Shown: positions 1,662 to 7,377 of the stretch, one piece after another | How the letters are laid out: the number at the start of each line of letters is the position of its first letter | Numbering within the stretch: position 1 is the stretch's first letter | Origin: Aureibacter tunicatorum | GTDB lineage: Bacteria; Bacteroidota; Bacteroidia; Cytophagales; Cyclobacteriaceae | Direction: 5' to 3' | Length of the DNA stretch: 64,000 nt | Assembly: GCF_036492635.1 (NCBI RefSeq) | Contig: NZ_AP025305.1 | Location: 2,914,001 to 2,978,000, forward strand | Notes under the pieces: model-generated | Told to the model about the DNA's origin: nothing | Database searches by the model: none | What the model saw: only the letters and a program-made list of their open reading frames with translations | Position numbers and translations under genes: made by a program

Positions 1662-1873
1662 CAAGCATCCTCGTCCACTGGCAATTTATCAATCCGCCCA
1701 AAGCAGATACTCATGGGAGAAACTCATCCATTTTCATTATTAGAATTAATGATTGCATAAATAAAAAAAAAATAAAATTATGTTTTGTTTTTTACTTCAA
1801 AAAGATCAAATTTGGAAAACAAGGAAGAGGAAAATTTCCTATCCTTATTTACTCTAACAACAGAATTAATAGA
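1662..1873 (+). other. intergenic region before the ilv leader
   Basis: An AT-rich stretch with no convincing ORF. A weak promoter-like match lies at 1753-1786: TTG at 1753-1755, then TATGTTTT at 1779-1786, close to the Bacteroidota -7 box TAnnTTTG. The 23-bp spacing is longer than the usual 19-21. It is the most plausible location for the ilv operon promoter because it lies upstream of the leader ORF, but I cannot place the transcription start. Confidence 0.3.
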
Positions 1874-1945
1874 ATGATCTCTCTCCTCACTCAAAATATA
1901 ATCGTCATTACTGTGAATGTCATTGACGTCATTATTATTGAATAA
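1874..1945 (+). CDS. ilv operon leader peptide (attenuator sensor)
   Basis: ATG at 1874 opens a 23-codon frame ending at TAA 1943-1945. Fourteen of the 23 residues are branched-chain: Ile at positions 2, 9, 10, 12, 17, 20, 21 and 22, Val at 11, 14, 16 and 19, Leu at 4 and 5. This is the composition expected of a ribosome-stalling sensor for isoleucine/valine supply. It lies 120 bp before ilvD, just ahead of a perfect terminator hairpin, and its codons overlap the first arm of an alternative RNA pairing. The known parallel is the ilv leader peptides of enterobacteria. Assignment is from sequence alone, but composition, position and RNA folding all agree. Confidence 0.85.
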   Translation: MISLLTQNIIVITVNVIDVIIIE

Positions 1946-2021
1946 TGAGGGAGGATTTGTATTATTATATAAAAAATTATAAAGCCTTTCTCTTGAATCA
2001 AATAAGAGAAAGGCTTTTTTT
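1884..2021 (+). promoter_or_regulatory. ilv transcription attenuator (three alternative hairpins)
   Basis: Three mutually exclusive pairings are visible. Protector 1:2 pairs 1884-1893 (TCCTCACTCA) with 1946-1955 (TGAGGGAGGA), 9 of 10 pairs. Antiterminator 2:3 pairs 1947-1958 (GAGGGAGGATTT) with 1981-1992 (AAAGCCTTTCTC), 11 of 12 pairs including two G-U. Terminator 3:4 pairs 1981-1994 with 2004-2017, 14 perfect pairs with a 9-nt loop and seven Ts at 2015-2021. A ribosome stalled at the Ile/Val codons 9-17 covers arm 1 and frees arm 2, so 2:3 forms and transcription reads into ilvD. A ribosome reaching the stop codon covers arm 2, so the terminator forms. Confidence 0.82.
1981..2021 (+). terminator. 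intrinsic terminator of the ilv leader
   Basis: A 14-bp perfect stem (AAAGCCTTTCTCTT at 1981-1994 with its complement at 2004-2017), loop 1995-2003 and a run of seven Ts. It lies 45 bp before the ilvD ATG, so it acts within the ilv leader rather than ending the upstream gene. Confidence 0.9.
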
Positions 2022-2065: not shown

Positions 2066-3745
2066 ATGGAAAAGGATCTTAACAAGTACAGCCAGACGAT
2101 CACTCAAGATGAGTCTCAACCAGCCTCTCAAGCAATGCTATATGCTGTGGGCCTTGAGGAAAAAGACATGAGCAAAGCTCAAGTTGGCATAGTCAGCACA
2201 GGATATGAGGGAAACCCATGCAATATGCATCTAAACGGACTCGCTGACAAAGTCAAAATAGGCGTCCAAGAAAATGGCTTGGTTGGTCTTGTTTTCCATA
2301 CTATTGGAGTAAGTGATGGTATTTCGAACGGAACTCCCGGCATGAGATACTCTCTTGTTTCTAGAGACATTATCGCAGACTCTATTGAAACCGTTGTAAA
2401 TGCGCAATACTATGATGCGGTAATTCCTGTAGTAGGTTGTGATAAAAATATGCCTGGAGCCATGATCGCTTTGGGAAGACTTAATCGACCTGGGATATTG
2501 CTATATGGAGGAACAATCAAATCCGGGAACTGGAAAGGTGAAAAACTAAATATTGTATCCGCTTTTGAAGCATATGGAGCTAAAATGAAAGGTGCAATTT
2601 GCGAAGAAGACTTCAAAGGAATCATTCAAAACTCCATTCCTGGAGCAGGCGCATGCGGTGGAATGTACACTGCAAACACCATGGCTTCAGCAATCGAAGC
2701 TTTGGGTATGACATTGCCGTACAGTTCTTCAAATCCAGCTGTAAGCGATGAGAAGAAAGTTGAATGCATCAGCATTGGCGAAGCCATCAAAAACTTGATG
2801 ATCAAAGACATCAAGCCAAGAGACATCATGACTAAGGAAGCTTTTGAAAATGCTCTAACAGTCATTATGGCATTAGGTGGATCTACGAACGCTGTATTGC
2901 ACATGATCGCTATGGCAAGATCAGTAGATGTGGATATCACTATCGATGATTTCCAAAGAATAAGCGACAAAACTCCATTTATCGCTGACCTCAAACCAAG
3001 CGGTAAATATTTGATGGAAGATCTTCATGATATTGGCGGTTTGCCTTCATTTATGAAAATGCTACTTGAAGAAGGCTTCTTGCATGGGGAATGCTTAACA
3101 GTTACTGGGAAAACTTTAACTGAAAACCTTGCGGAAGTTCCAGATCTACCGGAAGGGCAAGATTTAATCAGACCAATTTCCGACCCAATCAAGCCTGAAG
3201 GCCACTTGCAAATACTTTATGGAAACTTGGCATCAGAAGGTTCTGTGGCAAAAATCACAGGCAAAGAAGGGTTAAAATTCGAAGGTCCTGCCAGAGTATA
3301 CAACAATGAATTTGAAGCAATCGAAGGTATAAAAAGCGAAGTCAAAGAGGGTGAAGTCATCGTCATTAGATACTCAGGACCTAAAGGCGCTCCAGGCATG
3401 CCGGAGATGCTCAAGCCTACAAGCGCTGTCATGGGCTCTGGATTAGGTAAAAATGTGGCGTTGATAACTGATGGTAGATTCTCCGGTGGTTCTCACGGTT
3501 TTGTAGTAGGCCACGTAACTCCTGAAGCTCAAGAGGGAGGAATGATCGCCTTGGTTCAAAATGGAGACATCATTTCCATCGACGCAGTAAGCAATCAAAT
3601 TAATGTTCACCTCTCGGATGAAGAGATAGAGAAGAGAAGAAAGGAATGGGTTCAACCACCATATCCAGCCTCAAGAGGTGTCTTAGCTAAATACATCAGA
3701 TCAGTAAAATCCGCTTCAGAAGGATGTGTAACTGATGAAATTTAA
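2066..3745 (+). CDS. ilvD: dihydroxy-acid dehydratase
   Basis: Dehydrates 2,3-dihydroxy-isovalerate and 2,3-dihydroxy-3-methylvalerate to the 2-keto acids, the third common step of Val/Ile/Leu synthesis. The 559-residue length matches the family. Three conserved cysteines suited to iron-sulfur ligation are visible: C52 (NPCNMHL), C125 ([10 protein letters not shown]) and C197 ([14 protein letters not shown]). The C-terminal signature [11 protein letters not shown] is present. It is the first structural gene after the attenuator. ilvB begins 3 bp after its stop, so the two are almost certainly translated from one mRNA. Confidence 0.97.
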
Positions 3746-3748
3746 TTC

Positions 3749-5512
3749 ATGTCGGACTTAAAACAAATTGATATAGTGGAAGCAACAACAGAAACTGAAC
3801 AAATAAAGGAAACCGCTACCCCTAAGAAAAATGTTAGCGGATCAGAAGCGGTTATTCTTTCCTTGTTAGAGGAGGGAGTTGACACGATCTTTGGATATCC
3901 AGGCGGAGCGATTATGCCTATTTATGATGCTCTTTATGATTTCCAAGACAGAATCAACCACATACTTGTAAGACATGAACAAGGCGCAAGTCATGCGGCG
4001 GAAGGGTATGCTAGAATCAACAATAAAGTAGGAGTTTGTTGGGCGACATCAGGTCCTGGAGCTACAAATTTAGTAACAGGAATTGCGGATGCAATGATCG
4101 ACTCTACTCCAATGGTATGCATCACAGGACAAGTAGCAAGTCATTTGCTTGGCACTGACGCATTCCAAGAAACAGACGTAATGGGTATCACAATGCCCAT
4201 CACAAAATGGAGCTACCAAATTACTTCAGCTGATGAAATTCCTGAAGTAATTGCAAAAGCCTTTTATATCGCCAATTCAGGGAGGCCAGGTCCTGTATTG
4301 ATTGACATAACAAAAGATGCTCAATTTGCTAAAACGGATTTTGAATATAAAAAATGCACAGGCGTAAGAAGTTATGTAGCTGATGTTACTCCAAAAGAAA
4401 CCTCTCTTATAGCCGCTGCTGAAATTATAAATAATGCGCATAAACCTATGATTCTTGCAGGCCATGGAATTTTGCTTTCAGGCGCGCAAAAAGAATTCAT
4501 AGAATTTGTGGAAAAATCAGGAATACCTGTCGCTAGCACATTGCTAGGGTTGTCGGCTTTTCCTGAAGATCATGAATTGTACATGGGAATGCTTGGAATG
4601 CATGGAAACTATGCTCCAAATTTATTAACCAATGAAGCTGATGTTATCATCGCTATCGGAATGAGATTTGACGACCGTGTAACAGGAGACTTGTCTACTT
4701 ACGCGAAACAAGCAACCGTCATTCATATTGAAATAGATCCTGCCGAGATCAATAAAATAGTTAAAGCCGATGTAGCAATTGTTTCTGACGCAAAACTAGC
4801 TATTAATAAACTACTTCCATTAACTCAAAAAAGAACTTACCCAGATTGGTATCATAGATTCAATCATTTGAGACAAATGGAATTCGACAAAGTCATTAAA
4901 AACGATATTCACCCTAAAAGTGGGGGAATCAAAATGGCTGAGGTTATTAATCAAATCTCTGAAAAAACTAAAGGCGAAGCAATTATTGTAACTGATGTTG
5001 GCCAACATCAAATGATTGCAGCAAGATACTATAAGCATACAAAAACCGACAGTTGGGTAAGTTCTGGAGGTTTGGGAACTATGGGCTTCGCATTGCCGGC
5101 TGCATTTGGAGCTAAAATGGCTCAACCAACAAGAGAAGTAATCGCTGTCATTGGCGATGGAGGATTTCAAATGACTCTTCAGGAACTTGCAACAATCAAA
5201 CAAACTGGACTTCCTGTTAAAGTTCTAATTCTTAACAACAGCTTCTTAGGCATGGTAAGGCAATGGCAAGAATTATTTTTTGAGAAGAGATACTCTTCAA
5301 CAGAAATGGTAAATCCTGACTTTGTCGCTATCTCTAAAGGCTTCGGCATTGACGCCCTACAGGTATCTTCCAGAGAAAATCTCAACGAAGGCATCGACAA
5401 AATGCTCAATACCGATGATTCTTTCTTACTGGAAGTTATCGTGGAAAAAGAAGACAATGTTTTCCCAATGGTGCCTACTGGCGCTAGTGTTTCTGATTGT
5501 AGACTAGACTAA
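3749..5512 (+). CDS. ilvB: acetolactate synthase large (catalytic) subunit
   Basis: Thiamine-diphosphate enzyme that condenses pyruvate with pyruvate or 2-ketobutyrate, the first common step of Val/Leu/Ile synthesis. The catalytic Glu is E77 in RHEQGASHAAEGYAR. The ThDP/Mg motif starts with GDGGFQM at about 469-475 and continues to NNSFLGMVRQW. The 587-residue length is normal. The first 30 or so residues are a polar extension before the conserved GSEAVILSLLEEGV start of the domain. It is followed 8 bp downstream by the regulatory subunit gene, as usual for this heteromer. Confidence 0.97.
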   Translation: MSDLKQIDIVEATTETEQIKETATPKKNVSGSEAVILSLLEEGVDTIFGYPGGAIMPIYDALYDFQDRINHILVRHEQGASHAAEGYARINNKVGVCWATSGPGATNLVTGIADAMIDSTPMVCITGQVASHLLGTDAFQETDVMGITMPITKWSYQITSADEIPEVIAKAFYIANSGRPGPVLIDITKDAQFAKTDFEYKKCTGVRSYVADVTPKETSLIAAAEIINNAHKPMILAGHGILLSGAQKEFIEFVEKSGIPVASTLLGLSAFPEDHELYMGMLGMHGNYAPNLLTNEADVIIAIGMRFDDRVTGDLSTYAKQATVIHIEIDPAEINKIVKADVAIVSDAKLAINKLLPLTQKRTYPDWYHRFNHLRQMEFDKVIKNDIHPKSGGIKMAEVINQISEKTKGEAIIVTDVGQHQMIAARYYKHTKTDSWVSSGGLGTMGFALPAAFGAKMAQPTREVIAVIGDGGFQMTLQELATIKQTGLPVKVLILNNSFLGMVRQWQELFFEKRYSSTEMVNPDFVAISKGFGIDALQVSSRENLNEGIDKMLNTDDSFLLEVIVEKEDNVFPMVPTGASVSDCRLD

Positions 5513-5520
5513 ATAAACTC

Positions 5521-6036
5521 ATGACAAGGCAATATACATTCACAATATTTTCTGAAAACAATCCTGGGTTACTCAACAGAATCACGAGTATCTTCAACAG
5601 GAGAAAAATGAATATAGAAAGCATTACCACTGCTAAATCTGAAATTCCTGGCATCAGTCGATACAATATTGTAGTTGAGACAAACCAATTGGAAGCGGAC
5701 AAGATCAACCTTCAAATTGAAAAACAAATTGAGGTGATTAAATCACTCGTTTCCACTGATACGGAAATTATCCACAGAGAGGTCGCTTTGTATAAGCTTG
5801 AAAATACCAAAAGCAATAAAAAAGCTATTGAAACAATTATTTCAAGCGTTCCAACCAGCTTAATCGCTCGTGAGGAAAAAGAATACATAGTAGTACAAAA
5901 TACCGGTAGAGAAGACGAGAACGAATCCGTACTTGAAAAACTCAGTCCTCTGGGCGTAAGAGAATTTTCTAGATCAGGTAGAATCTGCGTAATGAAAGCC
6001 ATGGATCATATCAGTGAATATATCCAAGAAATATAA
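5521..6036 (+). CDS. ilvN: acetolactate synthase small (regulatory) subunit
   Basis: Regulatory subunit that binds valine through an ACT domain and controls the IlvB catalytic subunit. Residues 1-75 form the ACT domain, with the typical FSENNPGLLNRITSIFNRR helix and the following NIESI strand. The C-terminal part matches the ALS small-subunit second domain (VREFSRSGRICVMK). At 171 residues it is the usual IlvH/IlvN size. It lies 8 bp after ilvB and about 70 bp before ilvA, in the same transcription unit. Confidence 0.95.
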   Translation: MTRQYTFTIFSENNPGLLNRITSIFNRRKMNIESITTAKSEIPGISRYNIVVETNQLEADKINLQIEKQIEVIKSLVSTDTEIIHREVALYKLENTKSNKKAIETIISSVPTSLIAREEKEYIVVQNTGREDENESVLEKLSPLGVREFSRSGRICVMKAMDHISEYIQEI

Positions 6037-6105: not shown

Positions 6106-7377
6106 ATGCCTTCCGATAATATAACTAACACTAATGTCCTTGGTATAGATACTATACAACTAGCCTATCAAAGAATAAAAAATGTAGTAAGCAAAACACC
6201 TCTGCAACGTAGTAAAAATCTTTCGGACAAATACAACGCTAATATCTTTCTGAAGCGTGAAGATTTGCAAATCGTAAGATCTTACAAAATAAGAGGCGCT
6301 TACAATAAAATCAGTTCTTTGAACAGTGATGAGCAAGCAAAAGGTATCGTTTGCGCAAGCGCAGGGAACCATGCTCAAGGCGTAGCCTATTCATGCTTTG
6401 ATTTGAAAATCAAAGGCAAGATATTCATGCCTAGCACTACGCCAAAGCAAAAGGTCAACCAAGTTAGAATGTTCGGAAAGGATTATGTGGAGGTAATATT
6501 AACCGGGGACACTTTTGACGATGCATACAACAAAGCGCTAGACACTTGTGAAAAAGAAGGCATGACCTTCATTCATCCATTTGATGATGAAAAAGTCATG
6601 GCAGGGCAAGGCACAGTAGGTCTTGAAATATTGTTGGATGCGGAAGAACCAATAGATTACATCTTCGTAGCCATTGGCGGTGGCGGTTTAGCTTCTGGGC
6701 TAGGAAGTTATATCAAACAAATTAGTCCACACACAAAAATTATCGGGATTGAACCTGAAGGAGCTCCTGCGATGAAAAACTCTCTTCAAGCCGGCAAAGT
6801 TGTCAAACTCGATAATATAGAAAAGTTCGTAGATGGGGCGGCAGTGCAACAAGTCGGACTTAACACATTTGAAACTTGCAAAGAGGTTTTGGATGATGTG
6901 ATTTTAGTTCCAGAAGGCAAAGCCTGCACAACAATACTGAAACTGTATAATGAAGAAGCTATAGTCGTTGAACCTGCAGGGTCATTATCTGTAGCGTCAT
7001 TGGACTTCTTTCAAGAAGAAATCAAAGGCAAAAATGTTGTCTGCTTGATCAGTGGTGGAAATAATGACATAATGCGTACTGAAGAGATCAAAGAACGTTC
7101 GCTATTGTACGAAGGCCTGAAACATTATTTCATTGTTACATTCCCGCAAAGAGCTGGCGCGTTAAGAGAATTTCTAGTGAACGTATTAGGCCCGAATGAC
7201 GACATAACTCTTTTCGAATACACGAAAAAAAATAGCCGCGAAAATGGCCCAGCACTAGTGGGTATTGAGTCAAAATCAAAAGAAGATTACGATGAACTCA
7301 TCAAAAGAATGGACAAATTTAAAATCAACTATCGTTTATTGAATGACGAACCAGGTTTATTTCATTACTTGATATGA
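6106..7377 (+). CDS. ilvA: threonine ammonia-lyase (threonine deaminase)
   Basis: PLP enzyme converting threonine to 2-ketobutyrate, the committed step to isoleucine. The PLP lysine lies in RSYKIRGAYN near residue 64, the glycine loop is AIGGGGLASGLG, and SGGNND is the second phosphate-side motif. At 423 residues it is shorter than the roughly 514-residue E. coli enzyme. Residues about 335-423 (HYFIVTFPQRAGALREFL) form a single ACT-like regulatory domain, so feedback control by isoleucine/valine is likely. It is the last gene of the operon before a strong terminator. ilvC, often found in such operons, is not in this window. Confidence 0.95.
   Translation: MPSDNITNTNVLGIDTIQLAYQRIKNVVSKTPLQRSKNLSDKYNANIFLKREDLQIVRSYKIRGAYNKISSLNSDEQAKGIVCASAGNHAQGVAYSCFDLKIKGKIFMPSTTPKQKVNQVRMFGKDYVEVILTGDTFDDAYNKALDTCEKEGMTFIHPFDDEKVMAGQGTVGLEILLDAEEPIDYIFVAIGGGGLASGLGSYIKQISPHTKIIGIEPEGAPAMKNSLQAGKVVKLDNIEKFVDGAAVQQVGLNTFETCKEVLDDVILVPEGKACTTILKLYNEEAIVVEPAGSLSVASLDFFQEEIKGKNVVCLISGGNNDIMRTEEIKERSLLYEGLKHYFIVTFPQRAGALREFLVNVLGPNDDITLFEYTKKNSRENGPALVGIESKSKEDYDELIKRMDKFKINYRLLNDEPGLFHYLI

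Follow-up and report, generated by a model that had tools for sequence, protein, structure and literature searches.

Attenuation by leader peptides requires fast ribosome loading and a ribosome that stays close behind RNA polymerase. A comparative study by Vitreschak and colleagues in 2004 reportedly predicted attenuators of branched-chain operons, some of them in Bacteroidetes/Chlorobi. The Bacteroid-trp RNA (RF01692) we take to be the RNA at the tryptophan operon. It has been described as a Bacteroidetes cis-regulatory RNA (PMC2864571), and attenuation is listed for the ilvGMEDA, ilvBN and leu leaders of Escherichia coli and Salmonella (PMC1183508). In Bacteroidia ribosomes the anti-Shine-Dalgarno sequence is sequestered (PMC9976891).

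Here we describe a probable element of this kind in the window, the whole 64,000-nucleotide stretch of DNA that was analysed. It ends 45 nt before ilvD and precedes the genes making the amino acids presumed to be sensed, ilvD-ilvB-ilvN-ilvA (Table 1); the closest gene on the upstream side runs to 1661 and codes for a pseudouridine synthase of the RluA type. The original prediction described a 23-codon ORF with 14 branched-chain residues, and both the coordinates and the counts (8 Ile, 4 Val and 2 Leu) were reproduced. The stop codon abuts arm 2 as claimed, and a second stop, TGA, follows the TAA in tandem. The three mutually exclusive pairings came out with the very figures predicted: 1:2 joins arm 1, inside the ORF, to 1946-1955 (9/10 paired), 2:3 joins 1947-1958 to 1981-1992 (11/12, two G-U) and 3:4 joins 1981-1994 to 2004-2017 (14/14), folding adding a G-U pair to give 1981-1995/2003-2017. 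The prediction also added seven Ts to this pairing; these are present, with the small correction that the run is 2015-2021 and its first three Ts therefore lie inside the terminator stem. The folding energy is -19.2 kcal/mol for the terminator (1974-2021) compared to -12.9 kcal/mol for the antiterminator with arm 4 absent.

We interpret the locus, from its sequence, as a ribosome-mediated transcriptional attenuator that would sense charged Ile/Val (and Leu) tRNA and control ilvD-ilvB-ilvN-ilvA, and we put the probability of this reading at roughly 0.92. The attenuation geometry originally proposed is supported by the exact anatomy and by recurrence and covariation in relatives. A tentative promoter lies upstream, where CAAATTTG has one mismatch to the Bacteroidota -7 element TAnnTTTG, a consensus since revised to TAHHTTTG (PMC6847099). 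The exact TAnnTTTG is found at most 90 nt upstream in 11/46 relatives against 3.0 expected.

Table 1. Positions of the ilv operon, the elements of its probable attenuator and the tandem copies in other genomes
Feature	Position	Strand	Remarks
Putative promoter (tentative)	1783..1814	+	TTTTG 1783-1787 and CAAATTTG 1807-1814
Leader ORF	1874..1945	+	23 codons, MISLLTQNIIVITVNVIDVIIIE then stop; no Shine-Dalgarno-like site; type conserved in relatives
Arm 1 (partner: arm 2)	1884..1893	+	9/10 pairs; z -1.9, p 0.04
Regulatory codons (Ile/Val run, codons 9-23, 3' of arm 1)	1898..1942	+
Tandem in-frame stops TAA TGA, start of arm 2	1943..1948	+	Stop overlapped or directly adjoined by arm 2 in almost every relative
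Arm 2 (5' half of antiterminator; predicted to be masked by ribosome at stop)	1946..1958	+
Arm 3 (terminator 5' half and antiterminator 3' half)	1981..1995	+
Arm 4 and T-run 2015-2021 of intrinsic terminator	2003..2021	+
ilvD, dihydroxy-acid dehydratase	2066..3745	+	NCBIfam TIGR00110, 727 bits
ilvB, acetolactate synthase large subunit	3749..5512	+	NCBIfam TIGR00118, 745 bits
ilvN, acetolactate synthase small subunit	5521..6036	+	NCBIfam TIGR00119, 98 bits
ilvA, threonine ammonia-lyase	6106..7377	+	NCBIfam TIGR02079, 655 bits
Tandem attenuators before ilvE (relatives)	L020 458-686; L027 3796-4028; L077 3656-3960
Tandem attenuators before ilvD (relatives)	L033 2356-2602; L037 4662-4986

We propose that a ribosome would initiate at ATG 1874, in an A-rich context and without Shine-Dalgarno pairing. 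When amino acids are ample, the anatomy suggests that it would reach the stop at 1943-1945 and mask arm 2, so that the 3:4 terminator forms and the transcript ends at about 2021. When Ile/Val-tRNA is scarce, a ribosome stalled in codons 9-17 would cover arm 1 and leave arm 2 free; 2:3, a pairing supported by co-variation, could then form and the polymerase would be expected to enter ilvD. If the leader is left untranslated, 1:2 would pair, 3:4 would be freed and termination may follow, the weakest step given how much arm 1 varies among relatives. One point counts against the model: a ribosome halted on the final three Ile codons (20-22) would mask arm 2 and favour termination.

To gather relatives we used IlvD, drawing loci from named genomes, from other members of the family and order and evenly over the class. 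Upstream regions were inspected directly, arms and leader starts being picked partly by hand, and the loci are phylogenetically non-independent. The ilvD set comprised 33 attenuators at first and 46 after the addition of 13 from the class draw and the remaining family members. With 14 more before an ilvE that heads the operon, among them those of Fulvivirga and four Chitinophaga species, about 60 Bacteroidota loci have the same anatomy. The original prediction had looked to relatives for conservation, and there the ORF composition, arms 2, 3 and 4 and the stop at arm 2 do recur across these loci; the nearest relatives are also consistent with a placement in Bacteroidota and Cytophagales. The leader peptides consist of 52 % Ile, Val and Leu (33 leaders).

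Of the 45 genomes with ilvD that were sampled in the family and order, no fewer than 23 have the element upstream of ilvD or ilvE. This is a minimum, since for several operons headed by ilvE the upstream stretch that was examined was too short. The distribution is patchy, since the closest IlvD relative (L083, 78 % identity) has no element upstream. Left out of the counts were L011, with a weak leader before ilvB, and L150, a weak detector match. Five genomes carry tandem attenuators, two before one ilv operon (Table 1). Serial regulators before a single operon are more familiar among T-boxes and riboswitches.

A covariance model was built from 31 ilvD attenuators, blind to gene position, and searched against the whole genomes of 19 relatives. 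The best matches were mostly at the heads of ilv operons, and in three genomes with an ilvE-headed operon the match was upstream of ilvE and followed a leader, MLNNNIYIVLVITVVNLVKRGDG, MFIKRILAPFLLILLVVNW or MLFNIVVLVIILLPIVG respectively. In 79 named loci, matches beyond the training set stood upstream of ilvE (Fulvivirga imtechensis, four Chitinophaga species and others), and an Ile/Val/Leu-rich leader preceded nearly all of the non-training matches. The element goes with whichever gene heads the ilv operon, be it ilvD or ilvE. The weaker matches inspected in the window's own genome proved to be ordinary gene-end terminators; the model alone is therefore unspecific and the leader ORF is required.

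Two records named as gammaproteobacteria, L069 (Marinicella sediminis) and L002 (Psychromonas sp.), have a Bacteroidota-like IlvD, which may reflect horizontal transfer or mislabelled or contaminated records. In L069 an attenuator is also present before ilvE.

Covariation of the arms in relatives had been put forward as a check, and it holds for 2:3 and 3:4 while being weak for arm 1. In the terminator, 9 of the 11 consensus pairs show compensatory double changes. For the antiterminator, the arm-2 region of each locus was paired with its own arm 3 and compared to shuffled arm-2 regions and to the arm 3 of other loci. The mean z was -3.35 over 33 loci, where the cognate partner had a median rank of 2 of 33, and -4.1 in the 13 additional loci; the window itself is moderately special (z -2.6, cognate rank 11/33). 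Co-varying arm 2/arm 3 pairs can be seen by eye in GAGAATGG/CCATTCTC, GAGAAAGG/CCTTTCTC, GGTGTGAG/CTCACACC, GAGGCAC/GTGCCTC and GAAGCGC/GTGCTTC.

Of all the elements, arm 1 shows the lowest conservation across relatives, its pairing being individually significant in just 10/33 loci. It is conceivable that attenuation has only two states, with arm 1 idle and no 1:2 hairpin for the untranslated leader. Indeed, because arm 1 is poorly conserved, the no-translation state may lack enforcement by a 1:2 hairpin in some loci. On the other hand, the mean z for arm 1 over the 33 loci is -1.5 and the window has a good 1:2 pairing. We consider this variant, which is compatible with the main reading, rather unlikely though worth keeping in mind.

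A further explanation is that the hairpin simply terminates the upstream rluA-type transcript and that the Ile-rich ORF arose by chance in AT-rich DNA, where Ile codons are cheap; the hairpin of the terminator is a normal one, and L016, which we rejected as an attenuator, is exactly such a case, its terminator belonging to the upstream gene. However, the Ile/Val/Leu ORF, the stop at arm 2 and the 2:3 complementarity are found in about 60 loci, including those before ilvE, while ordinary terminators of the same genomes are without such upstream complementarity (mean z -0.65 for 140 at the same loci versus -3.7 for the 46 attenuators; p=2e-16). The Val codons are also GC-richer (GTC, GTG) than expected, the opposite of AT drift. 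When 450-nt upstream regions are shuffled, 0.35 % of them contain an Ile/Val/Leu-rich ORF with a terminator at most 60 nt downstream, and the Ile/Val/Leu score observed at this locus was reached by 0/60 shuffles. We regard an upstream terminator as very improbable.

Alternatively, the nascent chain or a hydrophobic small protein may be what acts, the terminator being regulated otherwise (Rho, NusG or a trans factor), as the hydrophobic leaders, a peptide shared by L157-L160, the long N-terminus common to Chitinophaga leaders and a conserved membrane peptide before ilvD in another family (L121, L123, L124) might suggest, yet throughout the set just composition and arms are kept and peptide sequence is not, the mutual exclusion of 2:3 and 3:4 has been retained, and we hold this to be most unlikely.

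Some groups of loci have features of their own. Within the window's family, a distinct terminator, AAAGTGCYTCA..TGARGCACTTT, sets apart one subgroup (L157-L163 and L148-L149), and part of this subgroup (L157-L160) shares the leader peptide MFxIVTPLSFIILI; given this partial conservation, the sequence of the peptide may be important in its own right in these loci. In L005, L121, L123 and L124, which belong to one family, a membrane peptide of about 41 residues (MIIFLILLVIFLIIYLIDN..) stands before ilvD and resembles a small protein gene. These four were positive with the detector and were rejected as leaders, what they hold being a conserved membrane peptide gene (MIIFLILLVIFLIIYL..) plus a terminator.

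The proposed attenuator is further characterized by its codon usage. Compared to the expectation from the adjacent ilvD genes, the Val codon GTC is found 54 times versus 20 in the 33 leaders and the Ile codon ATT 114 times versus 83. Arm pairing alone was rejected as the cause of the GTC bias, because the excess persists outside the predicted paired arms (22 versus 9.4 expected). In the window the Val codons of the leader are three GTC and one GTG, codons used at 23 % and 12 % in the neighbouring genes. Strong codon bias is known in attenuation leaders and has been explained in E. coli by selective isoacceptor charging (PMC1183508). The GTC bias of the ilv leaders is of the kind discussed there, its tie to selective charging being by analogy only.

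How such leaders would be started is suggested by the sequence around their ATG. A Shine-Dalgarno-like site (GGAG, GAGG or AGGA, 4-20 nt 5' of the leader start) is absent in the window and present in just 2/33 leaders, leaving 31/33 without. ATG 1874 has A at -3, -6, -12 and -14, an A-rich context that resembles the start determinants measured in Flavobacterium johnsoniae (PMC6847099). A Shine-Dalgarno-like GGAGG occurs within arm 2 at 1950-1954, and likewise in L028, L050, L107 and Chitinophaga; since Shine-Dalgarno sequences are disregarded in this phylum, it presumably does no harm.

Upstream of trpE, the window's own genome carries a leader with Trp-Trp-Trp, MSNIQLHTNFWWWHSNVNIR, and a canonical terminator behind it (L120 reverse complement 748-810); the closest Rfam family of this leader is RF00513, whose score of 29.2 bits is below the cut-off, and RF01692 is unmatched. 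Before hisG there is a His-rich ORF with a GTG start, MKRYTHISPLNATAHAHARHFHHSL (L119 775-852), for which a 1:2 pairing is possible and no U-run terminator was recognisable. No leader ORF was recognised upstream of thrA and leuA. With Trp, His and ilv leaders in one genome, leader peptides therefore appear to serve up to three pathways.

In Rfam searches of the window and 16 relatives, no model reached its gathering cut-off, the Leu, Thr, Phe, Trp, His and Bacteroid-trp leaders included; the best amino-acid leaders scored 14-18 bits with E above 1 against cut-offs of 55, and sub-threshold matches to a plastid 3'UTR, PyrR and miRNAs were judged to be chance. In the open-access literature we found no Bacteroidetes ilv attenuator. 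We lean towards a Bacteroidota-wide, uncatalogued family of ilv attenuators that is independent of Shine-Dalgarno pairing, and hence implies close coupling of ribosome and polymerase, with two in series in some members. Attenuation conserved in a phylum that hides its anti-Shine-Dalgarno would offer a natural reporter of initiation on short ORFs and of the tightness of transcription-translation coupling. It also supplies a model for the regulation of branched-chain synthesis in Bacteroidota, an RNA family that Rfam lacks and hosts that can be grown in culture (Chitinophaga, Neolewinella, Fulvivirga).

Like the ilvGMEDA, ilvBN and leu systems of E. coli and Salmonella, the element combines an Ile/Val/Leu-rich ORF with biased regulatory codons, exclusive 2:3 and 3:4 pairings, a 1:2 pairing that is seen in the window though weak across relatives, and an intrinsic terminator before an ilv biosynthetic operon. 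Unlike in those leaders, no Rfam relationship was detected, its stop lies at or inside arm 2, it is without a Shine-Dalgarno site and it occurs as tandem copies in some Bacteroidota genomes. With RF01692 it shares being a cis-regulatory RNA of an amino-acid operon in Bacteroidetes, in a genome that has a Trp leader before trpE as well, but RF01692 concerns the tryptophan operon and its model gives no match to the ilv element. To Thr_leader (RF00506) and Phe_leader (RF01859) there is a weak, sub-threshold likeness of leader and terminator (14-18 bits against 55), and the element is a member of neither. Relative to the attenuators reportedly predicted in 2004 by Vitreschak and colleagues, the roughly 60 loci, the ilvE-headed operons and the tandem copies would exceed the genomes of that time. 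The ilv attenuator is thus a new and well-supported family of a familiar kind, because its principle is textbook and attenuation in Bacteroidetes had reportedly been predicted before.
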